From Archangiaceae bacterium (GTDB lineage Bacteria; Myxococcota; Myxococcia; Myxococcales; Myxococcaceae), in assembly GCA_016879935.1 (NCBI GenBank), contig JAACJQ010000388.1:1-41177 (forward strand): 41,177 nucleotides of DNA. Reading direction: 5' to 3'. The position numbers were made by a program, and so were the translations under genes. Below, one piece after another: positions 1,312-26,311 of the stretch. Each line of letters opens with the position of its first letter. The first letter of the stretch is position 1. The notes beneath the pieces were generated by a model. The model did no database searches and had not been told where the DNA came from. It saw only the letters and a program-made list of their open reading frames with translations.

Positions 1312-2685
1312 GTGAGCACCACCGTTCTCGTCGTCGACGACGACTCTGCCAACCTCGACTCCGTCTGCCGCATCTTCCAGAAGGAAGGCGTCGCCACCCT
1401 GCCCGCCTCCGATGGGCAGAAGGCGCTCGAGCTGCTGCGCAAGCCCGAGGTCGGCGTGCTCGTCACCGATCTGATGATGCCGGGCCTCGATGGCCAGGCG
1501 CTGCTCAAGGCCGCGCGCGCGATGCGCCCCGACGTCGAGGTGGTGCTGATGACCGCCTACGCCACCGTCGAGACCGCGGTGAGCGCGATGCGAGACGGCG
1601 CGTACGACTTCATCACCAAGCCGCTCAAGCGCCACTCGCTGCTCAAGGCCGTGCAGAAGGCCATGGAGAAGCAGCAGCTGTCGGCCGAGAACCGCGACCT
1701 CAAGGCGCAGATCGCCGCGATGGGCCAGAAGAGCATCGTCGGCAACTCGCCAGCGTTCCGCGCGTTCATGGATCTGCTCGAGCAGGCGTCGCCGTCGACG
1801 GCCACCGTGCTGCTGCAGGGAGAGTCGGGGACCGGCAAAGAGCTGGCCGCGCGCTTCATTCACGAACACTCGCCTCGCGCGAAGACGGCCTTCATCGCGG
1901 TGAACTGCGCCGCGCTGCCCGAGAGCATTCTCGAGGCCGAGCTCTTCGGCGTCGAACGTGGCGCCTTCACCGGAGCCGTCGCCCGCAAAGAGGGCCGCTT
2001 CGAGCGGGCGAACGGCGGCACGCTCTTCCTCGACGAGGTCGCCGAGATGAGCCCGTCGGCGCAGGTGAAGCTGCTGCGCGTACTGCAGGAGGGTGAGCTC
2101 GAGCGGCTCGGCGGCACGCAGACCATCAAGGTCGACGTTCGCCTCGTGGCCGCCACCAACAAGGACCTCGCGACGGAAGTGAAAGAGGGCCGCTTTCGCG
2201 AAGACCTCTACTACCGGCTCAACGTCGTCGAGGTGCGCATTCCTTCGCTGGCCTCACGACGTGAAGACATCTCGCTGCTGGCCGAGCACTTCCTGCGTCG
2301 CTTCGCCGCGAAGAACGGCAAGCCGCTGAAGGGCTTCTCCGACGAGGCGCAGGCGTTGATGGAGAACTACGCGTGGCCCGGCAACATTCGTGAGCTCGAG
2401 CATGCGGTCGAGCGCGCGGTGGTGTTGTGCCGTGGCGATCTCGTCAACGCCGGCGATTTGCCCGAGGGCGTACGCAAAGGCCCGATGGGCGCCGCGCAGC
2501 AGATCGTCATTCCCATCGGTACGCCGATGGAAGAGATCGAGCGGCGCGTGATTCACGAGACGCTGCGGCACACCCGTGGCGACAAGAACCTCGCCGCCCG
2601 CATGCTGGGCATCGCCGCGCGCACCATCTACCGAAAGCTCGCGGCGGAAGACGAGCCGAAGCCCGCCGAGCCGCCGGCGAGCTGA
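1312..2685 (+). CDS. NtrC-family sigma-54 response regulator
   Basis: This 457-residue regulator has the classic three-part layout. The receiver domain (about 1-120) has acidic residues D9-D11, phosphoacceptor D53 and K103. The AAA+ sigma-54 activator domain (about 140-375) has Walker A GESGTGKE and the GAFTGA loop that contacts sigma-54. A Fis-type helix-turn-helix lies near the C-terminus. The GTG at 1312 is chosen because it puts the receiver beta-1 strand (TVLVVDDD) at the N-terminus. The open frame extends upstream to 1159 but that part overlaps the preceding gene. No sensor kinase is adjacent, so its partner is unknown. Its stop codon directly abuts the stop of the convergent gene. Family assignment is very secure; the target genes are not known. 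Confidence 0.95.
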   Translation: MSTTVLVVDDDSANLDSVCRIFQKEGVATLPASDGQKALELLRKPEVGVLVTDLMMPGLDGQALLKAARAMRPDVEVVLMTAYATVETAVSAMRDGAYDFITKPLKRHSLLKAVQKAMEKQQLSAENRDLKAQIAAMGQKSIVGNSPAFRAFMDLLEQASPSTATVLLQGESGTGKELAARFIHEHSPRAKTAFIAVNCAALPESILEAELFGVERGAFTGAVARKEGRFERANGGTLFLDEVAEMSPSAQVKLLRVLQEGELERLGGTQTIKVDVRLVAATNKDLATEVKEGRFREDLYYRLNVVEVRIPSLASRREDISLLAEHFLRRFAAKNGKPLKGFSDEAQALMENYAWPGNIRELEHAVERAVVLCRGDLVNAGDLPEGVRKGPMGAAQQIVIPIGTPMEEIERRVIHETLRHTRGDKNLAARMLGIAARTIYRKLAAEDEPKPAEPPAS

Positions 2686-4459: not shown

Positions 4460-4481
4460 GCGCGCGGGCTGTACCGCAGGG

Positions 4482-5243: not shown

Positions 5244-5305
5244 GGCGGAGACCAAAGCCGGAAACCTCACGTGCGTCGATTGCCGTGCGTTACAACCCAC
5301 ACCGC

Positions 5306-6289: not shown

Positions 6290-6290
6290 C

Positions 6291-6707: not shown

Positions 6708-6708
6708 C

Positions 6709-7902: not shown

Positions 7903-7908
7903 AGCGGC

Positions 7909-8265: not shown

Positions 8266-8286
8266 GACACCAAACGCTACTCCGGC

Positions 8287-9564: not shown

Positions 9565-9712
9565 GGTCGCCTCTCTGCCGACACCGACGCTCATTCGCAA
9601 GTCAGCCACGGTTCGCCGTTTGGTCGCTGGCCGAATGCGAGGCCCGACAGGATGTCACTCGCGCGGTCGCTCATCGCCTCGCAAGGCGGCGGAAGCTCGA
9701 ATGAGAGGCAGG

Positions 9713-9728
9713 TGGCACCAGCGTTGCT
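9713..9728 (+). promoter_or_regulatory. Sigma-54 (-24/-12) promoter of gspC1 and the gsp operon
   Basis: The sequence TGGCACCAGCGTTGCT matches the sigma-54 consensus TGGCAC-N5-TTGCW at every defined position, with GG at 9714-9715 and GC at 9726-9727 separated by exactly 10 bases. Transcription would start near 9739, only about 4 bases before the ATG at 9743, so the message would be nearly leaderless if that ATG is the true start. Only two exact matches of this kind were found by eye in the window, and the other sits at the start of the second gspC gene. Confidence 0.65.
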
Positions 9729-9742
9729 CGAGTGACCGCGTC

Positions 9743-10555
9743 ATGCGCCTCCGCACCAGTCTCTTTCTTCATGTGCTGCCCTGGGCCGTGCTCGCGCTCG
9801 CAGCGTGGCTGCTGGTGTCTCCCCTGGGCGTGCTGCTCGAAGACAGCCTCGCCCTGCCCTTCCACGAGCCAGCCTCCTCGCCACCTGCGGCCGTGCGTGA
9901 GCAGGCCACCCTCAGCGAACCTCGGGTGTACGCGCTGCTCGGCATGCCGCTCCCCCGGTCTGAGCAGCTCGTCTCGACGCCCCGCCCGCGGCCACCCTTT
10001 GGCGCGAAGCTGCTCGGAACGCTGTCGTCGTCGCTGCGGGAGCGCTCGGTCGCGACGTTGCTGCTGCCGACCGGCCGCGCTGTCTCGGTGTGGGAAGGCG
10101 ATCAGGTGCTCGACGCCCAGATCGTCGAGATCGCCCGCAATTCCATCACGCTTCGCCGTGAAGGCGTGTTGGAAGAATTGGCGATGCACCCGCCCGCCGC
10201 AATTCCTGCCATCGCCTTCGTGACACCAATCACTGCACAAGACTATGCCGTGTCGCGGATGGAGATCATGACCCGGCTCGGCGACCTGTATTCGCTCTCG
10301 AAAGACGTGCGGGTCATGCCGGCGTTCCGTGACGGCCAGCCCATCGGCTTCCGGTTCGCAGGGCTCTCGGCCGATTCGGCGGTCGCGAAGCTGGGGCTCA
10401 AGACGGGCGACGTGATCCGCTCCATCAACGGTCAGCCGCTCGATTCGATGCAGCGGGTGCTGGGCCTGGTGGGCGCCCTCGATCACACCCCCGAGGTCCT
10501 CGTTCAGGTCGAACGCGAAGGCCAGCTGCTCACCCACCGCTACCGCCTCAACTGA
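9743..10555 (+). CDS. gspC: GspC-like type II secretion inner-membrane protein, first copy
   Basis: This 270-residue protein has one N-terminal membrane helix (about 7-30), a short linker, an HR domain (about 85-150, GAKLLGTLSSS to the LRREGVLEEL strand) and a C-terminal PDZ domain (about 175-270, with IGFRFAGL, GDVIRSINGQPL and a final strand RYRLN). GspC links the inner-membrane platform to the secretin GspD through the HR domain. The frame is open from 9536, but the ATG at 9743 is preferred because it places the helix at the N-terminus and lies just after the sigma-54 element. The next gene is a second GspC-like protein of the same architecture. Which copy is the core subunit is not clear; this shorter copy is the more diverged by eye. 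Confidence 0.82.
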   Translation: MRLRTSLFLHVLPWAVLALAAWLLVSPLGVLLEDSLALPFHEPASSPPAAVREQATLSEPRVYALLGMPLPRSEQLVSTPRPRPPFGAKLLGTLSSSLRERSVATLLLPTGRAVSVWEGDQVLDAQIVEIARNSITLRREGVLEELAMHPPAAIPAIAFVTPITAQDYAVSRMEIMTRLGDLYSLSKDVRVMPAFRDGQPIGFRFAGLSADSAVAKLGLKTGDVIRSINGQPLDSMQRVLGLVGALDHTPEVLVQVEREGQLLTHRYRLN

Positions 10556-10669
10556 CCGCCCTTCCTGATCCAACCTGCCGTTCCGTCATGACGCCCTCCT
10601 TCGCTTTGACAAAATGGCAGAGAACCGCCCAGGACTGGGCCGATTCCCGAGTAATTTCAAGGCACTTGA

Positions 10670-10685
10670 TGGCACCGGGCTTGCT
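10670..10685 (+). promoter_or_regulatory. Sigma-54 (-24/-12) promoter at the second gspC
   Basis: The sequence TGGCACCGGGCTTGCT is a second exact match to TGGCAC-N5-TTGCW, with GG at 10671-10672 and GC at 10683-10684 at the required 10-base spacing. Transcription would start near 10696, just before the GTG at 10702. If the second gspC instead started at the ATG at 10669 or 10588, this element would lie inside the coding region. It mirrors the element in front of the first copy in sequence and in distance to the start codon (14-17 bases between the GC and the start codon). Confidence 0.55.
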
Positions 10686-10701
10686 CTTTGGCCCTCCTGC
10701 C

Positions 10702-11631
10702 GTGGAGTTCCTCTTCAAGCGACATTTCTGGCTGGTCCACCTCGCCTTCATGTTCGGGGTGGCCTTCTTCATCGGGAAGACGGCGAACGCCTTTCTCGAA
10801 GCCCAGCTGCTCCCGCTGCCGACTGGCGAGACGCGGCAGGTGCTCAAACCCCAGGTGGTCGAGCCGGTGCCGCAGCTGGTGCTCGACCGCATCGCCAAGC
10901 TCACGGGCCTGCCGGTGCCGAAGCCCGAGCCCGAGGTGAAGGAGCCGGAGGCGCCCAAGGTCGACATGGAGTCGCCGCCGATTCACTCGTCGCTGCGGCT
11001 CAAGCTGCTCGGCACGCTCGTCTCGGGCAACCCCGAGTGGTCGGTGGCGTCGATTCAAGACGTCGTCACGCTCAAGACCAACACGTACATGGTTGGCGAC
11101 ACCATTCAGGGCGCCGAGGTGCTCGAGATCGAGCGAAAACGCGTCATCATCAAACACAACAATCGCCGCGAGTACATCGACGAGAACCCGGGCGACGGGT
11201 CGATGGCCGCGCCGCCGCCGCCGGTACAGACGATCGCCGCCGCGCCGGCCAAGTACAACGACGCACCGCCGCCTTCGGTGGGCCTGGGCTCGACCATCAA
11301 GCAGATGAGCGAGAACGAGTACGAAGTGCCGCGCGCCGAGATCGACAAGACGCTCTCGAACCTCAACGACGTCGCCATGCAGGCCCGCATCGTGCCCGCG
11401 TTCAAAGATGGCGTCGCCCAGGGCTTCAAGCTGTTCTCGATTCGCCCCGACTCCATCTATTCGAAGATTGGCGTGCAGAACGGTGACGTCATCAAACGCA
11501 TCAATGGCTACGACCTGAACAGCCCTGAGAAGGCGCTCGAGGTCTACTCCAAGCTCAAAGAGGCTTCGCGCATCGACATCGAGGTCGAGCGCAATGGTGC
11601 CTCGGTTCGCAAGACCTACAACGTTCGCTGA
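10702..11631 (+). CDS. gspC: GspC type II secretion inner-membrane protein, second copy
   Basis: From the GTG at 10702 this is 309 residues: MEFLFKRHFW, a membrane helix (about 9-28), a Pro-rich linker, an HR domain (about 94-155, LRLKLLGTLVSG onward) and a C-terminal PDZ domain (about 207-309, with GFKLFSIRPDS and GDVIKRINGYDL). It is 147 bp from the first gspC copy and 12 bp from gspD. Alternative starts are the ATG at 10669, which has an AAGG six bases upstream, and the ATG at 10588. The GTG is favoured because the membrane anchor then follows directly and an exact sigma-54 element sits just before it. The role is secure: it connects the platform to GspD. Confidence 0.88.
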   Translation: MEFLFKRHFWLVHLAFMFGVAFFIGKTANAFLEAQLLPLPTGETRQVLKPQVVEPVPQLVLDRIAKLTGLPVPKPEPEVKEPEAPKVDMESPPIHSSLRLKLLGTLVSGNPEWSVASIQDVVTLKTNTYMVGDTIQGAEVLEIERKRVIIKHNNRREYIDENPGDGSMAAPPPPVQTIAAAPAKYNDAPPPSVGLGSTIKQMSENEYEVPRAEIDKTLSNLNDVAMQARIVPAFKDGVAQGFKLFSIRPDSIYSKIGVQNGDVIKRINGYDLNSPEKALEVYSKLKEASRIDIEVERNGASVRKTYNVR

Positions 11632-11643
11632 AACGACTTGAAC

Positions 11644-14055
11644 ATGAACACCCGCCTGTCCATCGGTCTCCTCTGCGCGCTCGTGCCGGCGTTCGCGCTC
11701 GCCCAGCAGCCCCCTGCCCCCAAAGCCGGAGCGCCCGCCGCCGCGGCAGCCGCTGCTCCCGGCGCCACCATCGCGCCCAAGAAGCCGAGCTGCGAAGAGT
11801 CGCGCCGCAAGGGCCGCTACAACATCTATTTCGACAAGGTCGAGATCGAGAAGCTGGTTCAAACCGTCTCTGACGTCACGTGCAAGACGTTCATCCTGCC
11901 CGAGAACATTCGCGGCAAGATCAGCATCATCGGCCCCGAGAACGGCAAGGTCGAGGTCGACGCCGACCAGTTCTACGCGGCGTTCCTCGCGGCCCTCGAT
12001 GCCAACAGCTTGTCTGTCTATTCGAACGGCAAGTTCATGAAGATCGTGGACAAGCAGCGGGCGAAGCAGTTCCCCATTCAGACCATCTTCGACCCGACAG
12101 AGCAGTACACGATGAACGAGCAGATGGTCACTCGCATGTTCAAGATCAAGAACGTCGAGATCGAGCAGCTGCGTGGCGTGTTGCAGCAATTGGTCACGCC
12201 GTCGGGCGACACCATTCCCTTCCAGCCCGACACCATCATCATCAACGACCTCGCGTCGAACATGCACCGCCTCGAGAGGCTGGTGGAGCAGCTCGACTCG
12301 CGCTCGGCGTCGGACGAGATGCGCGTGATTCAGGTTCAGTACGCGACCGCGCAGGAGATGGCCGACAAGATCACCAAGCTCTTCGAGGCGAAGGTGAACC
12401 GTCCGGGTCAGCGGCCGGGTGGCTTCATTCCGCCGCCTCCGCCGGGCGCCACGGCCGGCACGCCGGCTCCCGAGGCTGGCCCCGCCACGCTGACCCAGCT
12501 CATTCCCGACGAGCGCACCAACAAGCTCATCATCATCGCGAGCCCGGGCGCGATGGCCCGCGTCATGGCGCTCATCCGCGAGATCGACATTCCCATCTCG
12601 GGCGAAGGCCGCATCAACGTGCTCTACCTCGAGAACGCGAACGCCGAAGACGTCGCCTCGACGCTGCAGACGCTGGCGCAGGGCACCGCGAACCGCCCGA
12701 AGACGCCCACGCCGCCCCCGCCCGGTGGCCGGCCCACGACCGCCGCCGAGCTGTTCTCGGGCGAGGTGAAGGTCTCGGCCGACAAGTCGACCAACGCGCT
12801 CGTCATCATCGCCAGCCAGAACGACTACCGCTCGCTGCTGCGCGTGATCGAGAAGCTCGACATTCAGCGCCGCCAGGTCTTCGTCGAGGCGGTCATCATG
12901 GAGGTCAACCTCGATCGCAACTCCGACCTCGGCATCAACTTCCATGGTGGCGTGCCCCTGCCCTCGCAGGACGTGAGCCCGATCTTCTTCGGCACCAAGT
13001 ACTCGAGCCAGGGTCTGCCGCCCAGCCTCAGCCTTGCCAACCTCATCTCGTTGTCCGGCTTCCTCGGAGGCATTCAGAGCTCGCAGACCATCAACATCGC
13101 CGGCCTGACGATTCCCAACTTCGGGCTCGTCATCAATGCGTTGCAGAAGTCGAGCGACGTGAACGTGTTGTCGACGCCGCACATTCTCACCACCGACAAC
13201 GAAGAGGCCGAGATCACGGTCGGCCAGAACGTGCCGTTCCAGTCGGGCTTCTCGGCGGGTGGTCTGGGTGGGCTCGGCGGTCTGGCGGGGCTCGGTGGCG
13301 CGTCGAGTCAGCTCGGCGGCCTCGGTGCGCTCGGCTCGCTCGGTGGTCTCGGCGGCGGCGTGTTCGGCCAGATTCAGCGGCAGAACGTCGACCTCAAGCT
13401 GTCCATCAAGCCGCAGATCAACGAGTCCGATTACGTGCGGCTCGTCATCAACGAGCAGATCGAAGAGATCGCCTCGTCAGACCCGGTGCTCGGCCCCACC
13501 ACCTCGAAGCGCAGCGCGAAGACGACCGTCATCGCGAAGGACCAGGAGACCATCGTCATCGGCGGCATCATGCAGGACCGCCTCGTGGAGTCGGTCTCGA
13601 AGACGCCGCTCCTCGGCGACATTCCACTGCTGGGCAACCTGTTCCGTCAGCAGTCGCGTCGCAAGGTGAAGACCAACCTGCTGCTCTTCCTCACGCCGTA
13701 CATCATTCGTGACGCGGGTGACTTCCGCCGCATCTTCGAGCGGAAGATCAAGGAGCGTCAGCAGTTCGTCGAACAGTTCTACGGCGCCAGCACCACGTAC
13801 GACGTCGCCATCGACTTCAACCGCAAGCCCGGCCCGCTCGCGCGCATGACGCAATTGCTGAACAAGGAACTGAACCGCATCGAGAACGGCGGCCCCGGGC
13901 TTCCAGGCGAGAAGGTGATCGCGCCCGCTCCCGAAGCCAAGCCCGCAGAGTCGAAGCCTGCCACGCCCGTCGTCGAGCCGTCTGGCGCGACGCCGCCGGT
14001 GCCGGTGAAGGAGCCGAGCCCCGAGCAGCTGAAGGTGCAGCCGGAGATTCAGTGA
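11644..14055 (+). CDS. gspD: Type II secretion outer-membrane secretin GspD
   Basis: This 803-residue secretin has a signal peptide (1-20, ending FALAQ) and an Ala/Pro-rich spacer. The N0 domain (about 57-140, NIYFDKVEIEKLV) is followed by N1 to N3 repeats (about 150-400). The secretin core (about 420-710) carries the conserved VGQNVPFQSG and PLLGDIPLLGNLFR motifs. A Gly/Leu-rich stretch at about 535-577 is inserted right after VPFQSG in the gate region, far richer in GLGGLGG units than usual. The C-terminal 50 residues are Pro/Glu-rich. It forms the outer-membrane channel. The ATG at 11644 is preferred over a TTG at 11638. It lies between gspC and gspE. Confidence 0.97.
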   Translation: MNTRLSIGLLCALVPAFALAQQPPAPKAGAPAAAAAAAPGATIAPKKPSCEESRRKGRYNIYFDKVEIEKLVQTVSDVTCKTFILPENIRGKISIIGPENGKVEVDADQFYAAFLAALDANSLSVYSNGKFMKIVDKQRAKQFPIQTIFDPTEQYTMNEQMVTRMFKIKNVEIEQLRGVLQQLVTPSGDTIPFQPDTIIINDLASNMHRLERLVEQLDSRSASDEMRVIQVQYATAQEMADKITKLFEAKVNRPGQRPGGFIPPPPPGATAGTPAPEAGPATLTQLIPDERTNKLIIIASPGAMARVMALIREIDIPISGEGRINVLYLENANAEDVASTLQTLAQGTANRPKTPTPPPPGGRPTTAAELFSGEVKVSADKSTNALVIIASQNDYRSLLRVIEKLDIQRRQVFVEAVIMEVNLDRNSDLGINFHGGVPLPSQDVSPIFFGTKYSSQGLPPSLSLANLISLSGFLGGIQSSQTINIAGLTIPNFGLVINALQKSSDVNVLSTPHILTTDNEEAEITVGQNVPFQSGFSAGGLGGLGGLAGLGGASSQLGGLGALGSLGGLGGGVFGQIQRQNVDLKLSIKPQINESDYVRLVINEQIEEIASSDPVLGPTTSKRSAKTTVIAKDQETIVIGGIMQDRLVESVSKTPLLGDIPLLGNLFRQQSRRKVKTNLLLFLTPYIIRDAGDFRRIFERKIKERQQFVEQFYGASTTYDVAIDFNRKPGPLARMTQLLNKELNRIENGGPGLPGEKVIAPAPEAKPAESKPATPVVEPSGATPPVPVKEPSPEQLKVQPEIQ

Positions 14056-14057
14056 CC

Positions 14058-15845
14058 ATGAGCGAGTCGATGGAGACCAACGAAGAGATCCGCACCGAGC
14101 GCACCCAGATGGTATCGCATGGGCCGGCCTACCTCTTCGGCCGGCCGCTCGGCGAGATCCTCGTCAGTCAGTTTCAGCTGCCGCGCGAGAAGCTCGACGA
14201 AGCGCTCGCGGCGCAGGCCGAGAAGGGCGGCCGCATCGGTGAAGTGCTGATCGGCATGAAGGCCGCGACCGAGGAGCAGATCGCCCGCGCCCTCGCCGCC
14301 CAGCTCGACCTCGAATACGTCGGCACCGTCTCGGCCGACGACGTGCAGCCCGACCTCATTCAGAAGGTCGCCATCGGCTTCGCCAAGACGATGCGCATGC
14401 TGCCGCTCAAGCAGGTGGGCGACGTGGTGAAGGTCGCCGTCGCCGACCCGCTCGACACCGCGATGCTCGATCACGCGCGCATGATGTTCGCGCTCGAGGT
14501 CGAGCCCGTCATGGCCCAGGCCACGACGATCATCGACGCCATCAACGCGGTCTACGACCGCAACATCAACGAGGCCGAGCAGGTCGTTGGTGAGATGGAG
14601 GCGCAGGACATCGACGCCGCCGAGAAGGTGCTCGAAGAAGCACAAGACCTTCTCGACTCGGGCGACGAAGCGCCCATCATTCGTCTGGTGAACTCGCTGC
14701 TGTTCCGCGCCGCCAAGGAGCGCGCGAGCGACATTCACATCGAGCCGATGGAGCGCGAGCTGGTGGTGCGCTTCCGCGTCGACGGCGTGCTGCAGCCCAT
14801 CATTCGCCCGCCCAAACGTTCACAGAAGGCCATCATCAGCCGCGTGAAGATCATGGCGCAGCTGAACATCGCCGAGCAGCGCCTGCCGCAGGACGGCCGC
14901 ATCAAGATCAAGCTGGCCGGCCGTGACATCGACATTCGTGTCTCGACGATTCCCACCGTGCACGGCGAGAGCATCGTCATGCGTCTGCTCGACAAGAGCG
15001 GCACGCTGCTCGACCTCGATCAGATCGGCATGGCGCCCGAGGTGCTCCGTGGCGTGTACGACGTCACCGCGCGCAGCCACGGCATCTTCCTCGTCACCGG
15101 CCCCACGGGCTCGGGCAAGACGACCACGCTCTACGGCGCGCTCTCGCGCATCAACACGACCGAGGTGAAGATTCTCACCGTCGAAGACCCGGTCGAGTAC
15201 CAGCTCAAGGGCATCAACCAGATGGCCATTCAGCCGAAGATCGGGCTGACGTTCGCCTCGGGCTTGCGCTCCTTCCTCCGTCAGGACCCCGACATCATCA
15301 TGGTCGGCGAGATTCGAGACAAAGAGACCGCCGAGATCGCGATTCAGGCCTCGCTCACGGGTCACCTCGTGCTCTCCACGGTGCACACGAACGACTCCGC
15401 CGGCGCCGTCACCCGTCTGGTGGAGATGGGCATCGAGCCCTTCCTCGTCGCGTCGTCGCTCACCGCCGTGCTCGCCCAGCGCCTCGTGCGCCGCGTCTGC
15501 CAGGAATGCCGTCAGCCGTACCGCCCCACCGACGAAGAGATCTCGAAGCTCGGCATGAGCCGCGATCGCTTCATTGCCATGGGCGGCACCGAGATCGCGT
15601 ACCGCCACGTCGGCTGCAGTGCCTGTAACAAGAATGGCTACCGCGGCCGCATGGGCATCTATGAATTGCTGCCCGTCGACGAAGACGTGCGCCAGCTCGT
15701 CTTGAAGAACGTCGACTCGGGCACCATCAAGAAGAAGGCGATGGAGAAGGGCATGCTCACCCTGCTCGACGACGCCGCGCTGAAGGTGGCGCAGGGCCAG
15801 ACGACCATCGCCGAGGTTCTCTCGGTCACCCAGGAAGACATGTAA
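14058..15845 (+). CDS. gspE: Type II secretion assembly ATPase GspE
   Basis: This 595-residue ATPase has an N-terminal GspE/MshE domain (about 25-180) and a central dimerisation region with an RASDIHIEP motif. The ATPase core has Walker A GPTGSGKT (about 348-355), Walker B region DPDIIMVGEIRD (about 408-420), and a His box LVLSTVHTNDSAG. The tetracysteine zinc module typical of GspE is intact (CQEC near 481 and CSAC near 519). It powers pseudopilus assembly at the cytoplasmic face. The ATG at 14058 lies 2 bp after the gspD stop; a GTG at 14052 overlapping that stop would add two residues. Confidence 0.97.
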   Translation: MSESMETNEEIRTERTQMVSHGPAYLFGRPLGEILVSQFQLPREKLDEALAAQAEKGGRIGEVLIGMKAATEEQIARALAAQLDLEYVGTVSADDVQPDLIQKVAIGFAKTMRMLPLKQVGDVVKVAVADPLDTAMLDHARMMFALEVEPVMAQATTIIDAINAVYDRNINEAEQVVGEMEAQDIDAAEKVLEEAQDLLDSGDEAPIIRLVNSLLFRAAKERASDIHIEPMERELVVRFRVDGVLQPIIRPPKRSQKAIISRVKIMAQLNIAEQRLPQDGRIKIKLAGRDIDIRVSTIPTVHGESIVMRLLDKSGTLLDLDQIGMAPEVLRGVYDVTARSHGIFLVTGPTGSGKTTTLYGALSRINTTEVKILTVEDPVEYQLKGINQMAIQPKIGLTFASGLRSFLRQDPDIIMVGEIRDKETAEIAIQASLTGHLVLSTVHTNDSAGAVTRLVEMGIEPFLVASSLTAVLAQRLVRRVCQECRQPYRPTDEEISKLGMSRDRFIAMGGTEIAYRHVGCSACNKNGYRGRMGIYELLPVDEDVRQLVLKNVDSGTIKKKAMEKGMLTLLDDAALKVAQGQTTIAEVLSVTQEDM

Positions 15846-15851
15846 CGCGCC

Positions 15852-17114
15852 ATGCCCGTCTTCGAATACAGAGGCCTCGCGGCCAACGGGAAGACCGTCA
15901 CGGCGCTCAAGGAGGCAGACTCTCCGAAGGCGCTGCGGGCTGCACTGCGCAAAGAGGGCGTGTTCCTCACCGAGGTGGTCGGCGAAGCCGAGGCCGGCCT
16001 CAAGGGAGCGAAAGGCGCGAAGGCCGCTGCGTCGCAAGCGCTCTCGACCGACATCAACCTGCGCCGGCTCGCGCGTGGCCGCGTCAACACCGACGACATC
16101 GCCATCATGACCCGCCAGCTCGCCACGCTGCTCGGCGCCGGCGTCACGCTCGTCGAAGCGCTCGCGGCGATGGTCGATCAGGTCGAGAAGGAACAGCTCA
16201 AGCGCATTCTCTCCGACGTGAAGCAGAAGGTGAACGAGGGCAACTCGCTCGCCGACGCGTTGAGCGCGCACGGCAAGGTGTTCGGCAATCTGTTCATCAA
16301 CATGATTCGCGCCGGTGAGTCGTCGGGCGCGCTCGACTCGGTGTTGTTGCGCCTCGCCGAGTTCACCGAGGGCCAAGCCCGCCTGCGGCAGAAGATCGTC
16401 GGCACCATGATCTACCCGCTCATCATGATGGTGGTGGGCGGCGGCGTGCTCGTGATGCTGATGACCGTCGTCGTGCCGAAGGTGACGAAGATCTTCGACG
16501 ACATGAAGGTCACCCTGCCGTGGACGACGCGGCTGCTCATCTGGTCGTCGAACTTCCTGCAGGACTGGTGGTTCGTGCTGGTGCCGCTGATGATCGCGAC
16601 CGCCATCTTCCTCTTCCAGTGGACGCGCAGCGCGAAGGGCAAGCCCATCTGGGACAAGTTCGTGCTCAAGATTCCCGTCTTCGGGCCGCTCGTGCGAATG
16701 CTGTCGGTCGCCCGCTTCTCTCGAACGCTCGCCACGCTGCTCAAGTCTGGCGTGCCCCTGCTCACCGCGATGGAGATCGTGAAGAACGTCGTCACCAACA
16801 CGGTGATGAGCGACGTCGTCGACAAGGCGCGTGACTCGATTCGTGAAGGCGAGAGCATCGCCAACCCGCTCAAGCGGTCGGGCGAGTTCCCTCCGCTCGT
16901 GTACCACATGGTGTCGATCGGCGAGCGCTCGGGCCAGCTCGAAGACATGCTGCTCAACGTCGCCGACAGCTACGAGTCGCAGGTGAACGTGCGCATCGGC
17001 GCGCTGACGTCGCTGCTCGAGCCGATGATGATCGTGAGCATGGGCGCGGTCATCGCGTTCGTGGCCTTCTCGATTCTCATGCCCATTCTTCAGATGAATT
17101 CGATGGTCCGGTGA
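15852..17114 (+). CDS. gspF: Type II secretion inner-membrane platform protein GspF
   Basis: This 420-residue polytopic protein has two copies of the T2SS-F helical domain: the first begins RQLATLLGAGVTLVEALAAM (about 81-100), the second FSRTLATLLKSGVPLLTAME (about 291-310). Three membrane segments lie at about 183-207, 235-257 and 392-415. GspF is the platform protein that GspE acts on. The N-terminal segment (MPVFEYRGLAANGKTV) is the usual GspF opening. It starts 6 bp after gspE and is followed by a small membrane-protein gene rather than directly by gspG. Confidence 0.96.
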   Translation: MPVFEYRGLAANGKTVTALKEADSPKALRAALRKEGVFLTEVVGEAEAGLKGAKGAKAAASQALSTDINLRRLARGRVNTDDIAIMTRQLATLLGAGVTLVEALAAMVDQVEKEQLKRILSDVKQKVNEGNSLADALSAHGKVFGNLFINMIRAGESSGALDSVLLRLAEFTEGQARLRQKIVGTMIYPLIMMVVGGGVLVMLMTVVVPKVTKIFDDMKVTLPWTTRLLIWSSNFLQDWWFVLVPLMIATAIFLFQWTRSAKGKPIWDKFVLKIPVFGPLVRMLSVARFSRTLATLLKSGVPLLTAMEIVKNVVTNTVMSDVVDKARDSIREGESIANPLKRSGEFPPLVYHMVSIGERSGQLEDMLLNVADSYESQVNVRIGALTSLLEPMMIVSMGAVIAFVAFSILMPILQMNSMVR

Positions 17115-17129
17115 GGTGTTGGAGTGAAC

Positions 17130-17255
17130 GTGAACTCGAACGCAATGACTGACACCCGCCCGCCTTCAGAGAAGTGGCTCTGGCGGCTGGTGACGGCCGG
17201 CCTCGTGGGACTCGCCGTCGGCCTCGTGGCCGTCGGCCTCAACCTGTACGTGTGA
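17130..17255 (+). CDS. 41-codon single-helix microprotein between gspF and gspG
   Basis: This short frame encodes a polar N-terminus (about 15 residues, T-D-T-R-P-P-S-E-K) and one hydrophobic helix (about 18-40, rich in Leu, Val, Gly and Ala) ending Asn-Leu-Tyr-Val at the stop. The GTG at 17130 has GGAG at 17121-17124, five bases upstream. The ATG at 17145 would give 36 residues. It fills most of the 154-bp gap between gspF and gspG, with 13 bp left before gspG. Near-exclusive G/C third positions match neighbouring genes. No prepilin cleavage motif is present. It resembles in size and layout the second small gene after gspG. No family is recognised; it may be an accessory T2SS membrane subunit. 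Confidence 0.6.
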   Translation: MNSNAMTDTRPPSEKWLWRLVTAGLVGLAVGLVAVGLNLYV

Positions 17256-17268
17256 AAGGAAACACCGC

Positions 17269-17685
17269 ATGCTCCGCTCTGCCCTGACCCGTCGCCGCCG
17301 CGCTCGCGGCATGACGCTCATCGAGATCATCGTCGTCATCACCATTCTCTCGCTGCTGATGGCCGCCGTCGGCGTCGCCGTCATTCCCCAGCTGGAGCAG
17401 GCGAAGGTCGACCGCGCCAAGATGGACATTGGCAACATTCAGAACGCGCTGAAGACGTACTACGCGAAGAAGGGCAACTACCCCGACACGGGCCTGGGCC
17501 TCAAAGCGCTGGTCGATGCACAGATTCTCGAGCGCGTGCCGGTCGACCCCTGGGAGACCGAGTACGTGTACATGAAAGAGGGCTCGACGCCCGTCATCAT
17601 CTCGTACGGCAAGGACAAGGCGCCGGGCGGGGCCGAGACCGACGCCGACATCTCGTCGAAGGATCTCGGCGGCAAGAAGCAGTGA
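17269..17685 (+). CDS. gspG: Major pseudopilin GspG
   Basis: This 138-residue major pseudopilin has a basic leader MLRSALTRRRRARG, cleaved by prepilin peptidase after Gly14, giving a mature protein that begins MTLIE with the conserved Glu at +5. The hydrophobic N-terminal helix is followed by the typical GspG globular domain with GNYPDTGLGLKALV and a C-terminal calcium-site-like loop region (DPWETEYVYMKEG). It builds the pseudopilus piston. The ATG at 17269 has a strong AAAGGAAA sequence upstream. It is flanked on both sides by 41-codon membrane-protein genes, an unusual position. Confidence 0.97.
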   Translation: MLRSALTRRRRARGMTLIEIIVVITILSLLMAAVGVAVIPQLEQAKVDRAKMDIGNIQNALKTYYAKKGNYPDTGLGLKALVDAQILERVPVDPWETEYVYMKEGSTPVIISYGKDKAPGGAETDADISSKDLGGKKQ

Positions 17686-17692
17686 GCCACCC

Positions 17693-17818
17693 ATGACCTC
17701 CGACCCGCGCGACCGCGACGACAAGACGACCGGGCTCTCACCTGCGGCCATCGCCGTGGGCGTGGGCGCTGCGGCGCTCGTCTGGCTCGCGCTCGACGTG
17801 CTCAAGAGGATCATGTGA
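17693..17818 (+). CDS. 41-codon single-helix microprotein between gspG and gspH
   Basis: This short frame starts at the ATG at 17693, 7 bp after the gspG stop, and its TGA overlaps the gspH ATG as TGATG, so gspH translation is probably coupled to it. The product has a charged N-terminus (S-D-P-R-D-R-D-D-K-T-T), one hydrophobic helix (about 16-36, Ala/Val/Leu/Gly with one Trp) and a basic tail (L-K-R-I-M). Length is identical to the small gene before gspG (41 residues), but there is no clear sequence identity. No Shine-Dalgarno is obvious, consistent with coupling to gspG. No known family is recognised. Confidence 0.65.
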   Translation: MTSDPRDRDDKTTGLSPAAIAVGVGAAALVWLALDVLKRIM

Positions 17819-18516
17819 TGAAAGCCCGCGCCCGCAGAGGCATCACGCTCATCGAGCTGGTCGTCGCCCTCGGCATCGTCGTGGTGCTGTTCGCTGCCGT
17901 CGTGTTCGGCGTCGGCGCGCTCACGGGCGCAAAGGCCAAGGAGTCGAGCGCCGAGCTCGCGGGCACCATTCGGTCGCTCTACGACTCCGCCGCCCTCTCG
18001 GGGAAGACGTGCCGTCTCGTGTTCGAGCTGCCCGGCAAGGGCGCCGAAGACGACGAGGTGAAGTACCACGCCGAGTGCGCCAAGGCGGGTGTGACGGCCG
18101 GCGCGAACCGTGAAGACGAACAGCGCGAGGCCGACAAGAAAGACAAGAAGCGCAAGAGCGACGAAAGCGACACGCGCTTCCGCTCGCTCTCGGGTGACAA
18201 CAACGGCCCGAACCTGCAGGAACTGATGGCGCGCGAGAAGAACCGCGTCGAAGAGAGCGCGAAATTCTCGACGTTCTCGTCAGAAGACATCGTCGAGCGC
18301 TCGTTGCCCAGCGGCGTCGAGGTCGAGGTGTGGACCTCGAAGCTCAAGACGCCCGTGAAGTCTGGCGTCGCGTATCTGTATTTCTTTCCCCAGGGGTTCA
18401 CCGAGCGCGCGCAGATCTACGTGCGCCAGGGCAAGAACGTGTGGACCATCACCGTCTCACCGCTCACCGGGAAGACCGTGATTCACGCCGACGCGCTGGA
18501 GCTCCCCCGCACATGA
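17818..18516 (+). CDS. gspH: Minor pseudopilin GspH
   Basis: This 232-residue minor pseudopilin has leader MKARARRG cleaved after Gly8, then ITLIE with Glu at +5 and a long hydrophobic helix. The C-terminal globular part has beta-strand character. It is longer than the usual roughly 170 residues because of a highly charged insert (about 95-130, Lys/Asp/Glu-rich, DKKDKKRKSDESD) that looks disordered. Identification as GspH rests on order and the N-terminal helix; sequence outside the helix is weakly conserved in the family. It starts in a TGATG overlap with the preceding microprotein and ends in an ATGA overlap with gspI. Confidence 0.88.
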   Translation: MKARARRGITLIELVVALGIVVVLFAAVVFGVGALTGAKAKESSAELAGTIRSLYDSAALSGKTCRLVFELPGKGAEDDEVKYHAECAKAGVTAGANREDEQREADKKDKKRKSDESDTRFRSLSGDNNGPNLQELMAREKNRVEESAKFSTFSSEDIVERSLPSGVEVEVWTSKLKTPVKSGVAYLYFFPQGFTERAQIYVRQGKNVWTITVSPLTGKTVIHADALELPRT

Positions 18517-19445
18517 GCAAGCGCGCCTTCACCCTGCTCGAGACCGTCGTGGCCATGTCGATTCTGGCCGTGTCGCTGATGGCCATTCTGGACATCAACT
18601 CGACCGCGGTGGCGGCGCACATCTACGCGCGCAAGTTGACCGTCGCGACGATTCTGGCCCGCTCGAAGATGACCGACATCGAGCAGAAGCTGTACGACGA
18701 GCCGCTGCCGGCCGATGACGACGAAGACGCCGGTGACTTCAGCGCCGAAGGCTGGCCCTCGTACAAGTGGCGCGCGAAGATCATCGCGCCGCGAACGAAT
18801 GGCCTGACGCCCGAGCAGCTGTTCACCGCGCTGTTCAATTTGCCCATGGGCGGTGGTGGAAAAGATGGGCAGGCGAGCCCGCTGGCCGCGCTGTTCGGGA
18901 GTGGCGGCGCTCCGGCTGGTGCTGCAGGCGCGGCGGCGGCGGCACTGGGCGGCGGTGCGGCGGCAGGTGCTGGCGGCATGGGCGGCCTCATGGGCGCGCT
19001 CGGTGGCGCCAACCCGCTCACCGCCCAGTTTCAGCAGATGGTCGACATGCTGCAGAAGTCGGTGCGCGAGGTGCACCTGACGGTGACGTGGAAAGAGGGA
19101 AAGCTCACCGAGAGCTTCGACCTCGTCACGCACATCGTCTCGCTCGGGCCCGGCTCCGATCGCAACGGTGGTGCAGCTGGAGCGGCGGGTGCTCCGGCAG
19201 GCGCAGCGGCCGACGTGTACGTCGACTCCGCGACTGGGCAGCCCGTGCCAAACGCGCAGCCCGGCCCCAACGGGCAGATGGTGAACCCGGCGAACAACCA
19301 GCCCGTCATCACCGCGGCGCAGTTCGCTCAGCAGCGTGGCGGCCAGCAGATGCTGCAGAACCCGATTCCCGGCCTGCGCCCCATCGCGCCCGCCATGGTT
19401 CCGCAGGGCATCGGCAACGTCATTCGTGGAGGCGGCTTTCAATGA
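18513..19445 (+). CDS. gspI: Minor pseudopilin GspI, unusually long
   Basis: The leader is MSKRA and the mature N-terminus FTLLE with Glu at +5; the residue before the cut is Ala5 rather than the usual Gly. GspI is normally about 120-130 residues, but this one is 310. The extra length comes from a Gly/Ala-rich insert (about 128-169) and an extended Pro/Gln/Asn/Gly-rich tail (about 218-310). The core strands (YKWRAKI, VHLTVTWKEGKLTESFDLVTHIVSL) remain recognisable. The ATG at 18513 overlaps the gspH stop by 4 bp (ATGA), and its own stop overlaps gspJ in the same way. It forms the pseudopilus tip with GspJ and GspK. Confidence 0.88.
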   Translation: MSKRAFTLLETVVAMSILAVSLMAILDINSTAVAAHIYARKLTVATILARSKMTDIEQKLYDEPLPADDDEDAGDFSAEGWPSYKWRAKIIAPRTNGLTPEQLFTALFNLPMGGGGKDGQASPLAALFGSGGAPAGAAGAAAAALGGGAAAGAGGMGGLMGALGGANPLTAQFQQMVDMLQKSVREVHLTVTWKEGKLTESFDLVTHIVSLGPGSDRNGGAAGAAGAPAGAAADVYVDSATGQPVPNAQPGPNGQMVNPANNQPVITAAQFAQQRGGQQMLQNPIPGLRPIAPAMVPQGIGNVIRGGGFQ

Positions 19446-20113
19446 GCGCGCGCCGCGGCTTCACGCTCATCGAGGTCATCGCCGCCATCGGCATCACCGC
19501 CTTCATCGGCGTCGTCATCGGCGTCACCTTCAGCACCACCATCGCCAACAAAGACGTCATCGAAGGCCAGGCCGAGAAGTACCGCATGCTGCGCGCGGCG
19601 ACGAGCCGCATGGCCCGTGAGATCGGCGCCGCCTTCGTGAGCGATCGGTACGACTCCAAGCGCTACCGCGACGCCTTCGACCGGCCGACGAACTTCGTGG
19701 GCACGCGCGAGAAGCTGCTGTTCACCACGCTCGCCCACCAGCGCCTGTACGCCGACGCCAAGGAGAGCGACCAGATGGTGGTCGAATACTCCGTGAAGCG
19801 CTCGCCAGACCCGAAGGTGCGCGACCGGCAAGACCTCATTCGCCGCGAGAAGACGATTCTCGACGAGCGCATGGAGCGCGGCGGCACGGAGGACATTCTC
19901 TTCGAGGGCATCAAGAAGCTCGAGTTCCAGTACTGGAACAGCGAGCGCAAGCAGTGGGAAGACGAGTGGGACACGCGCCGGAGCGAGCGCCGCACCATTC
20001 TGCCCACGCGCGTGAAGGTGACCATCACCGCCGTCGACGAGAACGGCAAAGACGTGAAGTACGTCACCCAGGCGCGCATCATGTTGAACACCGAGTTCCC
20101 GAGGTTCCAATGA
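19442..20113 (+). CDS. gspJ: Minor pseudopilin GspJ
   Basis: This 223-residue minor pseudopilin has the leader MSARRG, cleaved before FTLIEVIAAIGITAF, with Glu at +5. The body matches GspJ, with an N-terminal helix running into RAATSRMAREIGAAF, then a beta-rich domain and the EFQYWN strand. It shows none of the low-complexity insertions seen in GspI and GspK. The start overlaps the gspI stop as ATGA, and its stop overlaps the gspK start in the same way, implying tightly coupled production of the tip proteins. Confidence 0.92.
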   Translation: MSARRGFTLIEVIAAIGITAFIGVVIGVTFSTTIANKDVIEGQAEKYRMLRAATSRMAREIGAAFVSDRYDSKRYRDAFDRPTNFVGTREKLLFTTLAHQRLYADAKESDQMVVEYSVKRSPDPKVRDRQDLIRREKTILDERMERGGTEDILFEGIKKLEFQYWNSERKQWEDEWDTRRSERRTILPTRVKVTITAVDENGKDVKYVTQARIMLNTEFPRFQ

Positions 20114-21543
20114 GAGCCCGGAGACTCGCCCGCCCGAAGCCGTCGTCGCCCCGCTCGCGCAAGACCGAGCGCGGTGTGGCGCTGCTCCTCGTGCTGGTTG
20201 GAATTGCCGTGTTGTCATTGGTGGCGAACGAGGTTCGCTACAACTCGATGGTCGAGTTGCGGCTGGCGACCAACCAGCGTGACGAGCTGCGGGCGCATTA
20301 TCTCGCCCGCTCCGGCATCGGCATGTCGCGCCTGATGCTGCGCTTCCAGAAGCAGATCGATCAGATGCCCATTCCCAACTTCTCGGGAATGCTGCAGGGC
20401 ATTCTGGGGAGCAACCCTGCCCTGGCCGGGCTGCTCGGCGGCGCGGGTGGCGCTGGTGGGCTCGGCGCACTCGCGGGTGCGCTCGGTGGTGGCGCGGGCG
20501 GCGCGGCAGGGCTGCTCGGTGGAGCCGGCGCAGCTGGCGCTCCCGGCATGAGCACCGCGTCGATTCAGCTCTGGCGCATGGCGAAGATCGACTGCCACAT
20601 GCTGGAGGGCATGGTGCCAGAGGTGACCGACAAGGGCGGCCTCGCCCCGATGGCGAAGAACAAGAAGTTCGAGTTCGACGACGAGAACCCCGAGCTCGGC
20701 AAAGAGATGCAGGCCAAGAAGTTCGGCTCGTTCACCGGCTGCTTCGACACCGTCATCACTGACGAAGAAGAGCGCATCAACTTGAACAAGCTCGACGGCA
20801 CCCAGCTCGTCGCGGCCGTCGTCGTCAGCCAGCTCGTCACCACGCTCAACGACAAGCGCTACGAGTTTCTCTTCGAGAAGGAAGACGCCAACCGTCTCAA
20901 GATCCCCGCCAACGAAGTCATCATCGGCATGAAGGACTGGATCGACGAGGACGAGACGGGCTCGAGCCTGAACCTCACTGGCCAGGGCGACCCGTTCTTG
21001 CGCGGCTTCTCCGACGAGAACGGCGGCTACTCGAACTACGAGACCCGGTACCGCGCGAAGAACGCGCGCTTCGACAGCCTCGACGAGGTCTTCCTCGTGC
21101 ACGGCGTCAACGACCGGTTCATGGCGGCATTCAAAGACAAGTTCACCGTCTACCCAGACATGAACGCCAGGCTGAACATCAACACCGACGACCCGGTGAT
21201 GCTGGAGATCGCGATTCGGTCGATCGTGAACCCGATTCCCGCCGACCCGCGGCTCGCCGACCCGATCTTCATCGACACCGTCATCAAGCGCATTCGCGCG
21301 GCGCGGCTCTTCGCGATGTTCGGCATGAGCGTCGTCGACTTCGCGAACATCGTGGCGTCGACGGGTCTCGCGGTGAACCCGACCATCTTGAACAACCCGC
21401 AGAACCAGCGCTTCATCGGTGACAAGAGCAACACGTACCGCATCGCGGTCACGGGCTCGGCTGGAGACGTCACCCGCACCATCACGGCGATCGTTCGCCT
21501 CGACGACGGCCTCGGCCGGCTCGTCTACTGGAGAGAGGAGTAA
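20110..21543 (+). CDS. gspK: Minor pseudopilin GspK
   Basis: This 477-residue tip pseudopilin has a long basic leader cut after Gly22 (KTERG) before VALLLVLVGIAVLSL. As in other GspK proteins, position +5 lacks Glu (it is Leu27). The large alpha-helical domain follows, with the GspK-typical DEEERINLNKLD and DWIDEDETGS motifs. A Gly/Ala/Leu-rich low-complexity insert sits at about 99-147, early in the globular region. GspK caps the pseudopilus tip with GspI and GspJ. The ATG at 20110 overlaps the gspJ stop by 4 bp. Confidence 0.94.
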   Translation: MRARRLARPKPSSPRSRKTERGVALLLVLVGIAVLSLVANEVRYNSMVELRLATNQRDELRAHYLARSGIGMSRLMLRFQKQIDQMPIPNFSGMLQGILGSNPALAGLLGGAGGAGGLGALAGALGGGAGGAAGLLGGAGAAGAPGMSTASIQLWRMAKIDCHMLEGMVPEVTDKGGLAPMAKNKKFEFDDENPELGKEMQAKKFGSFTGCFDTVITDEEERINLNKLDGTQLVAAVVVSQLVTTLNDKRYEFLFEKEDANRLKIPANEVIIGMKDWIDEDETGSSLNLTGQGDPFLRGFSDENGGYSNYETRYRAKNARFDSLDEVFLVHGVNDRFMAAFKDKFTVYPDMNARLNINTDDPVMLEIAIRSIVNPIPADPRLADPIFIDTVIKRIRAARLFAMFGMSVVDFANIVASTGLAVNPTILNNPQNQRFIGDKSNTYRIAVTGSAGDVTRTITAIVRLDDGLGRLVYWREE

Positions 21544-21546
21544 CTC

Positions 21547-23130
21547 ATGGCCCGCGTCCTCGGCCTCGATCTCGGCAGTCACTCGGTGAAGGCCGTGTTG
21601 CTCGAGACGACCCTTCGTGGCTTTCAGGTGAAGTCATACTCGACGGCGCCCGTGCCGACCGAGGGAGAACGGCTGCCGCGCCTCGAAGCCGCGCTCACGC
21701 AACTGCTTTCACAGAACACGCTCACCGCCGATAGCGTCGTCGTCTCGGTGCCGGGCGTCTCGATGGCGACGCACTCGCTCGCGCTGCCGTTCTCCGATCA
21801 GAAGAAGGTCGAGGCCGCGCTCTCGGGCGAAGTGGCCGACCAGCTGCCGTTCGATCTCGACGAAGCCATCTACGACTACCAGGCGAACGAGACGAAGAGC
21901 GGCGACGTGAAGGGCGCGCAGGTGCTGGTGGGGGTCATGCGCAAGCAGGAGCTTGGCTCGCTGCTCGAGTCGCTCAAGAAGTCGAAGCTCGACCCACGCG
22001 TCGTCACGCACCCCGGCCTCACGTACCAGAACGTGCTCGCCACCCTGCCCGCGACGTCTGACGAAGGCGTGGCCGTCGTCGACATCGGCCACGAACGCAC
22101 GAGCATGGCCATCGGCCGCGCCGGCGGGCCGGTCGATTTCGCGCGCACGTTCATGGGCGGCGGGCTCGCGCTGACGAAGGCGCTGTCGAACGAGTTCAAG
22201 ATTGGCCTTCCCGAGGCGCAGAGCTGGAAAGAGACACATGGCGCGGTGGGCACCGAGGTCGTGGGGCCCGACGCCGAGCGTGCAGCCGGCGCCTTCCTGC
22301 GCGCGCTGCAGCCGGTCATTCGTGAGCTGCGCTCGAGCATCAAGGCGTACACGGCGAAGATGAAGAGGCCGGTGACGAAGCTCCTGCTCTGCGGTGGCAC
22401 GGCGAAGCTGATGGGGCTCGCCAGCCAGCTCGAGAAGGATCTCGGCATCGCGACGACGGTGGTGGCGCTGCCTCCCGATGCGCAGGGGGCGCTGGGCCTC
22501 AACGCCGGGCCCGAAGCGGTTCAGGCGTGGGCGCTGGCGCTGCGCGGCCAGGCGACGGGAGCCAAGGCTCCGCGGTTCAACCTTCGTCGCGGCGAGTTCG
22601 CCTTCAAGAGCGACTTCGACTTCGCGAAGGACAAGCTCGGGCAGATCGGCGCGTTCGCGGTCGTATTGCTGGTGTTGCTCATCGCCTCAGGCATCGCGCG
22701 CAACACGATTCTCGAGCGGCGTGAGAAGGCGGTCGATCAGATCCTCTGTGACGTCACACAGAGAATCCTCGGCAAGTGCGAGAAGAACTTCGACATCGCG
22801 CTCAACCTGCTCGAGGGCAAAGAGAGCCCCACGGCCAGCGTGCCGAAGCGCTCGGCCGTCACCCTCCTCGCTGAGGTGTCTCAGCGCATTCCCGCCGATT
22901 CCCCCGTCACGCTCGACCGCGTCACCGTCGATCTCGATCGCATCGAGGTCGTCTGCCAGGCGCCCAGCGTGAAGCAGATGGAAGACATGATCACGGCGCT
23001 CAAGACGTACAAGTGTTTCCGCGAGATCAGCGAAGGCAAGGTCGAGAAGTCCAAAGACGGTACCAAGGTCACCTTCCGGCTCGACGTGAAGGTGGAGTGC
23101 CCCGAAGACGGCAACGCGGGGCAGGGGTGA
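21547..23130 (+). CDS. gspL: Type II secretion GspL, PilM-like platform protein
   Basis: This 527-residue protein combines a cytoplasmic PilM/actin-like domain (about 1-340, opening RVLGLDLGSHSVKAVLLE, with VVDIGHERTSMAI) with one membrane helix (about 366-388) and a periplasmic domain with ferredoxin-like strands. GspL recruits the ATPase GspE to the inner-membrane platform and pairs with GspM. The cytoplasmic part resembles PilM of type IV pili more closely than enterobacterial GspL does. It begins 3 bp after gspK and is followed by gspM after 3 bp. Confidence 0.92.
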   Translation: MARVLGLDLGSHSVKAVLLETTLRGFQVKSYSTAPVPTEGERLPRLEAALTQLLSQNTLTADSVVVSVPGVSMATHSLALPFSDQKKVEAALSGEVADQLPFDLDEAIYDYQANETKSGDVKGAQVLVGVMRKQELGSLLESLKKSKLDPRVVTHPGLTYQNVLATLPATSDEGVAVVDIGHERTSMAIGRAGGPVDFARTFMGGGLALTKALSNEFKIGLPEAQSWKETHGAVGTEVVGPDAERAAGAFLRALQPVIRELRSSIKAYTAKMKRPVTKLLLCGGTAKLMGLASQLEKDLGIATTVVALPPDAQGALGLNAGPEAVQAWALALRGQATGAKAPRFNLRRGEFAFKSDFDFAKDKLGQIGAFAVVLLVLLIASGIARNTILERREKAVDQILCDVTQRILGKCEKNFDIALNLLEGKESPTASVPKRSAVTLLAEVSQRIPADSPVTLDRVTVDLDRIEVVCQAPSVKQMEDMITALKTYKCFREISEGKVEKSKDGTKVTFRLDVKVECPEDGNAGQG

Positions 23131-23133
23131 TTC

Positions 23134-23682
23134 ATGGCTGACCTCTCGACCACGATTCAGAGTTCTCTCGCGACGCTCTCGGCGCGCGAACGGCGCATGG
23201 TGTTGGCGGCGGGCTTCGCCGTCAGCGTGTTCGTCGTCTTCATGGTGACCTTCAGCTTCTCGAACAAGGCCACGGCGATTCGCACCCGCACGACCCAGAA
23301 GATCGACAAGCTCTCGCGAGTGCAGGAATTGGCCGCCAGCTACAACCAGTCGCGTTCGCAGCGAGAGATGGCCGAGCGACAGCTGGCCGCGTCGAACATT
23401 CGCCTCTCGTCGTTCCTCGAAGACATCGCCAAGCAGAAGGGCGTCGAGCTGCCGACCATCAACCCGAAGGCCGACGTCGCGCTCGAGGGCACGAAGATCG
23501 TCGAGAGCTCGGTCGAGGTGACGCTCACCGACGTGAAGCTGAACCGGCTGCTGGAGTTCCTGCAGGCGGTAGAGGGCGCTCCGGGCGTCGTGAAGGTGAA
23601 GTACATGCGCCTCGAGCCCCGCGTCGCCAGCGAGAGCATCACCGCCTGGCTGCAGATCGCCACGTACCACTTGAAGAACTGA
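23134..23682 (+). CDS. gspM: Type II secretion GspM, PilO-like protein
   Basis: This 182-residue bitopic protein has a short cytoplasmic N-terminus, one membrane helix (about 22-42, LAAGFAVSVFVVFMVTFSF), a coiled-coil-like segment (about 45-90, Gln/Arg/Glu-rich) and a ferredoxin-like periplasmic domain (about 110-182). This is the layout of GspM/PilO, the partner of GspL in the inner-membrane platform. Assignment relies on topology and position between gspL and gspN, since GspM sequences diverge strongly. Confidence 0.88.
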   Translation: MADLSTTIQSSLATLSARERRMVLAAGFAVSVFVVFMVTFSFSNKATAIRTRTTQKIDKLSRVQELAASYNQSRSQREMAERQLAASNIRLSSFLEDIAKQKGVELPTINPKADVALEGTKIVESSVEVTLTDVKLNRLLEFLQAVEGAPGVVKVKYMRLEPRVASESITAWLQIATYHLKN

Positions 23683-23690
23683 CGACCGCC

Positions 23691-24614: not shown

Positions 24615-24618
24615 AGCC

Positions 24619-26134: not shown

Positions 26135-26311
26135 GGCCGCTCAAGTGCTATCGACGCGACCACGATGCGGGTCGGAATGGAGGCCCAGGCCGCGAGCTGT
26201 GACTCGTCGTTCATGAGCCCCCCTTGAGGATACATGGGACCAGGCCCCGGAGTGCGGGCTGCGTTTCGACCCTTCCACGCCCCGCAGGCTGGTGCTACCT
26301 CGCGCCCCACT

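Follow-up and report, generated by a model that had tools for sequence, protein, structure and literature searches.

Why should two gspC-like genes lying close together in a myxobacterial genome each begin a few bases after a perfect sigma-54 promoter sequence? The question is raised by a stretch of 41,177 nucleotides from an Archangiaceae bacterium (hereafter the window, an entire contig, C376, of a 9.53 Mb genome), in which TGGCAC-CAGCG-TTGCT stands at positions 9713..9728 and TGGCAC-CGGGC-TTGCT at 10670..10685, both on the + strand. The original prediction had read them as the sigma-54 -24/-12 elements of a repeated promoter-gene unit controlling the type II secretion system (T2SS) operon. 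Our pattern scan recovered both exact TGGCAC-N5-TTGCT elements where they had been reported, found no further match on either strand (a window total of two), and confirmed that the GG-N10-GC core is identical and correctly spaced in both. They end 14 nt before the ATG at 9743 (gspC1) and 16 nt before the GTG at 10702 (gspC2), within the 14–17 bases originally given. The chance expectation, which had been put at about 0.01, is indeed low, with dinucleotide shuffles of the window giving 0.02 exact matches and none of 100 shuffles containing two. The genome also carries rpoN, the gene for sigma-54 itself (Sigma54_DBD, 216 bits, at G000:C70).

The second of the two genes, gspC2 (10702..11631, +), is the orthologue of the GspC found across the phylum; its product exceeds the Pfam cut-off for T2SSC (31.8 bits vs. 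27) and its GTG start fits the conserved N-terminus ME(L/F)LF(K/R)(K/R)xFW. It is followed at 11638..25563 (+) by gspD, gspE, gspF, a pseudopilin gene, a PilM-like gene and further genes, identified by Pfam (Secretin, T2SSE, T2SSF, PilM_2) and as open reading frames. Since the secretin, T2SSE ATPase, T2SSF, pseudopilin and PilM-like genes come after gspC2, this gene opens the T2SS operon, which is presumably driven from the element at 10670. The gene in front of it, gspC1 (9743..10555, +), codes for a divergent protein of 270 aa with a transmembrane segment, an HR-like region and a PDZ domain, and its ATG start is kept in the congeners. Against Pfam it passes the cut-off for PDZ_6 (27.7 bits) and stays under that for T2SSC (21.2 bits, cut-off 27), so it is GspC-like only. 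Relatives at the same place were found in seven genomes of the genus of the window, to which gspC1 in its present form is restricted, and the gene is fast-evolving (a stem branch of 3.5 changes per column). Tandem gspC genes occur in two other families too (L041 in genome G036 and L039 in genome G056), and in G036 both copies are preceded by exact sigma-54 elements. A single ancestral tandem is unsupported, the tandem copies of families f2 and f3 grouping apart from the gspC1 of the genus in a tree with very long branches.

Conservation of the elements in related gsp operons had been named beforehand as the test that could refute the prediction, and it held. All 60 relatives have a gspC orthologue, and the strict element lies shortly before it in 51 of the 58 genomes of the order with readable upstream DNA, a further locus (L047) having a close variant. 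Among 75 named loci, which include Myxococcus xanthus, Corallococcus, Archangium and Anaeromyxobacter, the element is found at most 100 nt upstream of gspC in 67, and the remaining 413,659 bases of these loci hold three copies, all of them before gspC1 of the genus of the window. It is also present before gspC in several families outside the class, and a weaker form precedes the second T2SS gene sets of Myxococcaceae. Within the element the five spacer bases vary among the named loci and the hexamer TGGCAC and pentamer TTGCT are invariant, an invariance that is partly due to selection, as loci entered the comparison only with GG..GC and 9 or more of the 11 positions matching. Counting against the general rule, the element is absent before the main gspC of family f3 (five genomes). 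As judged from this distribution, the gspC operon of myxobacteria and their relatives starts at what we take to be an ancient, strictly conserved sigma-54 promoter.

Further upstream, the gspC regions carry palindromes that look like enhancer (UAS) sites. GACA-N3-TGTC palindromes were found in 50 of 79 non-redundant upstream regions vs. 0.4 in Markov shuffles. They take the form TG(A/C)CAANTTG(T/G)CA, at best TGACAANTTGTCA, and are usually accompanied by a second, weaker copy of the general form TGNC-N5-GNCA. In the window, the putative sites of gspC2 are a proximal one at 10607..10619 (TGACAAAATGGCA), 50 nt upstream of the element, and a distal one at 10576..10588 (TGCCGTTCCGTCA), 81 nt upstream. 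In the six congeners the position of the former is occupied by TGACAA[A/T]TTGGCA; the latter keeps its position in 7/7 congeners and corresponds to the distal site of other genera. For gspC1, the putative proximal site is at 9645..9657 (CGACAGGATGTCA), 55 nt upstream of the element, and together with the one at 10607 it makes up the only two such sites in the window; a UAS-like site 53–55 nt before the gspC1 element is present in all seven species of the genus. A possible, weak distal site at 9614..9626 (CGCCGTTTGGTCG), 86 nt upstream, fits the 31-bp pair spacing seen at gspC2. That the gspC1 sites are weaker than those of gspC2 counts against the model set out below. Each lineage keeps its own distances from palindromes to element: 50 and 81 nt in the genus of the window, 102–104 and 135 nt in Myxococcus, Archangium and Corallococcus, 92 and 132 nt in Anaeromyxobacter, and about 105 and 146 nt in family f13. 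The members of a pair are some 31–33 or 40–41 bp apart, near three and four helical turns. Joint patterns of UAS plus element matched in 43 of the 60 genomes, nearly always at gspC, and control patterns gave zero matches. A scan with the exact palindrome (TGACAAWTTGTCA) matched in only 10 of 60 genomes, chiefly at gspC, since the majority of sites depart from it in one half.

The position of the elements also bears on the messages that would be made. With transcription starting about 11 nt past the last base of the element, the predicted leaders are about 4 nt for gspC1 and about 6 nt for gspC2, in agreement with the 4–6 bases of the original prediction, and the purines at which transcription could initiate point to leaders of about 2–6 nt, or none, in the genus of the window. 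The gspC2 element is 16 nt from the start in all seven species of this genus, with different intervening bases, and that of gspC1 is at 12–14 nt in most of them. That the N-terminus is conserved in lineages with long leaders confirms the start assigned to gspC2. In Myxococcus-type genera the element-to-start distance of gspC is 29–39 nt (a leader of about 20 nt in Myxococcus), so the short leader is lineage-specific and no general feature of gspC promoters. All five exact elements of the genome end 13–16 nt before the ATG or GTG of an open frame, the genes behind them being gspC1, gspC2, two lipoprotein-like genes and one for a signal-peptide protein, and distances of 12–17 nt recur in two sister species at several of the sites, among them orthologous ones. 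Some elements of the sister genomes lie further from a start, which makes the short distance a tendency and not a law. Loci L002 (G000:C214:5902-5917), L239, L242 and L219 bring up what may be a second conserved target of sigma-54, the gene for a signal-peptide coiled-coil protein (MKLRAALL...): in three species a consensus element stands 16 nt ahead of its start, and in genome G022 an orthologous-looking gene has a UAS plus element match beside a response-regulator-type ORF. In two species of the genus, TGGCA(C/T)-N5-TTGCT is found about 90–100 nt before a conserved gene starting MSS(D/E)V(L/V)RL... (L234, L245).

Two genes of the window, one on either side of the T2SS operon, could provide the activator. 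An NtrC-type response regulator and sigma-54 activator (RR-EBP) is coded at 1312..2685 (+; Pfam Response_reg, Sigma54_activat, HTH_8), with a receiver domain carrying the Asp motif TDLMMP, an AAA+ domain with Walker A and GAFTGA, and a Fis-type HTH whose recognition helix, LAA(R/Q)LLGIAxRTIYRKL, is strongly conserved. A close orthologue was present in 35/35 genomes tested, and in most of the order the gene is the immediate upstream neighbour of gspC, on the same strand. In 39 of the 75 named loci it ends 133–288 nt before gspC (215 nt in M. xanthus), and UAS and promoter thus occupy the gap between them; from this adjacency we infer that RR-EBP may bind the gspC UAS. In M. xanthus the T2SS operon includes MXAN_2514, which is GspD (PMC3222651), and the gene order would make MXAN_2515 the gspC and the next gene the regulator. 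The DNA stretch ahead of this M. xanthus regulator showed no gene for a cognate kinase. Against RR-EBP counts its location in the window, where it is not adjacent to gspC and lies about 7 kb away with inserted genes between; such a shift by a few kb is seen in the genus of the window and near relatives. The intervening 2686-9609 holds, by names given from translations, enoyl-CoA hydratase-, phosphotransferase- and acyl-CoA dehydrogenase-like genes and alpha/beta-hydrolase genes. The other candidate is an FHA-domain sigma-54 activator (FHA-EBP) at 26234..27991 (+; Pfam FHA, Sigma54_activat, HTH_8; GAFTGA), and that it is also syntenic with the T2SS cluster speaks against the choice of RR-EBP. 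An ORF resembling an ECF-type sigma factor follows it at 28370-28888.

Could the two matches in the window be accidents of GC-rich DNA? Counted over the whole 9.53 Mb genome, the exact motif occurs five times vs. 12 for the reversed control pattern, and TGGCAY-N5-TTGCW six times vs. 16, so that a genome-wide enrichment of the motif has to be rejected. Since the raw count is not above chance, the case rests on the position of the elements and on their conservation. Two elements in a single 1-kb stretch, each before a gspC-like start, the phylum-wide conservation, the UAS palindromes at fixed spacing and the maintenance of the element while its five inner bases and its flanks vary all contradict coincidence, which we reject on the grounds of conservation and to which we give a practically negligible probability. 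The rarity of consensus elements relative to the reversed control (6 vs. 16) may reflect selection against stray sites. A narrower doubt concerns gspC1, whose element might be what remains of a duplicated unit, decaying or without function, only that of gspC2 being live. The fast evolution of the gene would fit with that, and so would the state of its element, which is retained in 7/7 species of the genus, exact in four and degenerate in three. However, the GG-N10-GC core and the UAS-like site at 53–55 nt are kept in all seven and the distance to the start is 12–14 nt in most, and we regard a relic as improbable. The repeated promoter-gene unit originally proposed is supported, the gspC1 element having its own UAS-like site throughout the genus, with the qualification that gspC1 is divergent, genus-restricted and below the T2SSC cut-off.

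If the elements are sigma-54 promoters, the activator might still be FHA-EBP, answering a phospho-signal from a Ser/Thr kinase. It has both GAFTGA and HTH. In about 25 genomes, one of them from family f6, it shares a contig with gspC, mostly at a distance of 14–19 kb, and G040, G043, G073 and G088 are further cases. In genome G007 it even adjoins gspC directly and divergently, with the UAS between them (L189/L193, G007:C19:8255-10027). However, its orthologue is absent at E <= 1e-95 from four genomes (G026, G041, G047 and G058) that all retain UAS and element and in which RR-EBP is present upstream of gspC on the same contig. On account of these four genomes we rank the receiver-type EBP ahead and consider control by FHA-EBP unlikely. 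A joint action of both at the gspC promoters, as hetero-oligomers or as alternative inputs, would agree with the conservation of both genes with the T2SS cluster, and hetero-oligomeric EBPs in myxobacteria are the subject of Volz 2012, going by its title (cited in PMC9548883); but lineages with RR-EBP only keep the same DNA architecture, leaving joint action a slim chance. RR-EBP is therefore the best candidate for the activator of both promoters, and probably the right one.

We consider it quite likely that both elements are real sigma-54 promoters activated by the NtrC-type protein of 1312-2685 from the paired palindromes, with a near-leaderless gspC1 message. In such a mechanism, sigma-54 RNA polymerase would wait as a closed complex at 9713-9728 and 10670-10685, and the activator would bind the paired palindromes 50–86 bp upstream and open the complex using ATP through its GAFTGA loop. 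Transcription would then begin some 11–15 nt past the element, giving a near-leaderless gspC1 message and, from gspC2 on, the message of the T2SS operon. Most likely the activator would be the 1312-2685 response regulator, whose orthologue immediately precedes gspC in most of the order, and secretion would then be switched on by phosphorylation from a kinase. Sigma-54 control of the T2SS operon, as originally proposed, is supported by the conservation, the paired palindromes and the adjacent EBP gene.

There are precedents for the parts of this arrangement. In Geobacter the gene for the NtrC-family PilR is just upstream of its sigma-54 target pilA (PMC2725144). The PilR-sigma-54-pilA systems of Geobacter, Myxococcus and Pseudomonas resemble the gspC loci in having an NtrC-family gene upstream of a secretion or pilus target with a sigma-54 promoter, and T2SS and type IV pili are related machines; unlike there, the target here is the gspC operon and the putative UAS is a pair of 13-bp palindromes. 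Within the same phylum, the Nla28 promoters of M. xanthus natural-product genes have a -24/-12 consensus TGGCACG-N4-TTGC(T/A), which the elements of the window match, and upstream EBP repeat sites (PMC7910581). However, the Nla28 half site, CT(C/G)CG(C/G)AG, is unlike the TGACAA/TTGTCA at gspC, and most Nla28 promoters lie inside genes (PMC7910581), whereas those of gspC are intergenic. Sigma-54/EBP control, in M. xanthus as elsewhere, and an EBP gene beside its target are thus known; what is unusual is the breadth of conservation. In pseudomonads, T2SS genes are reportedly under sigma-54 control (LipR/xcp), likewise through a sigma-54 activator tied to the secretion of extracellular enzymes; our literature search on sigma-54 control of the pseudomonad T2SS returned nothing specific. 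The literature searched contained no report of sigma-54 control of the T2SS in myxobacteria or the phylum, which subscription papers may mention, nor of any regulator of the myxobacterial T2SS. Jelsbak 2005, an early study of FHA-EBPs and sigma-54, may already mention such control.

The T2SS exports extracellular enzymes, on which predatory bacteria depend. A conserved sigma-54 promoter with paired activator sites indicates that in these bacteria a dedicated activator, responding to a signal, probably turns the system on. We lean, by a little, towards the wider view that the T2SS of the Myxococcota is under an ancient, dedicated sigma-54 circuit, made up of an orphan NtrC-type regulator, paired TGACAANTTGTCA enhancers and the gspC promoter, with near-leaderless sigma-54 transcripts in the genus of the window. 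The analysis names a candidate activator, its likely binding site and a promoter, whose conservation reaches from Myxococcus and Anaeromyxobacter into further families of the phylum, and M. xanthus would allow all three to be put to a direct test. Should the near-leaderless sigma-54 messages be real, they would unite a tightly controlled promoter with translation independent of a Shine-Dalgarno sequence, which would be an unusual combination.
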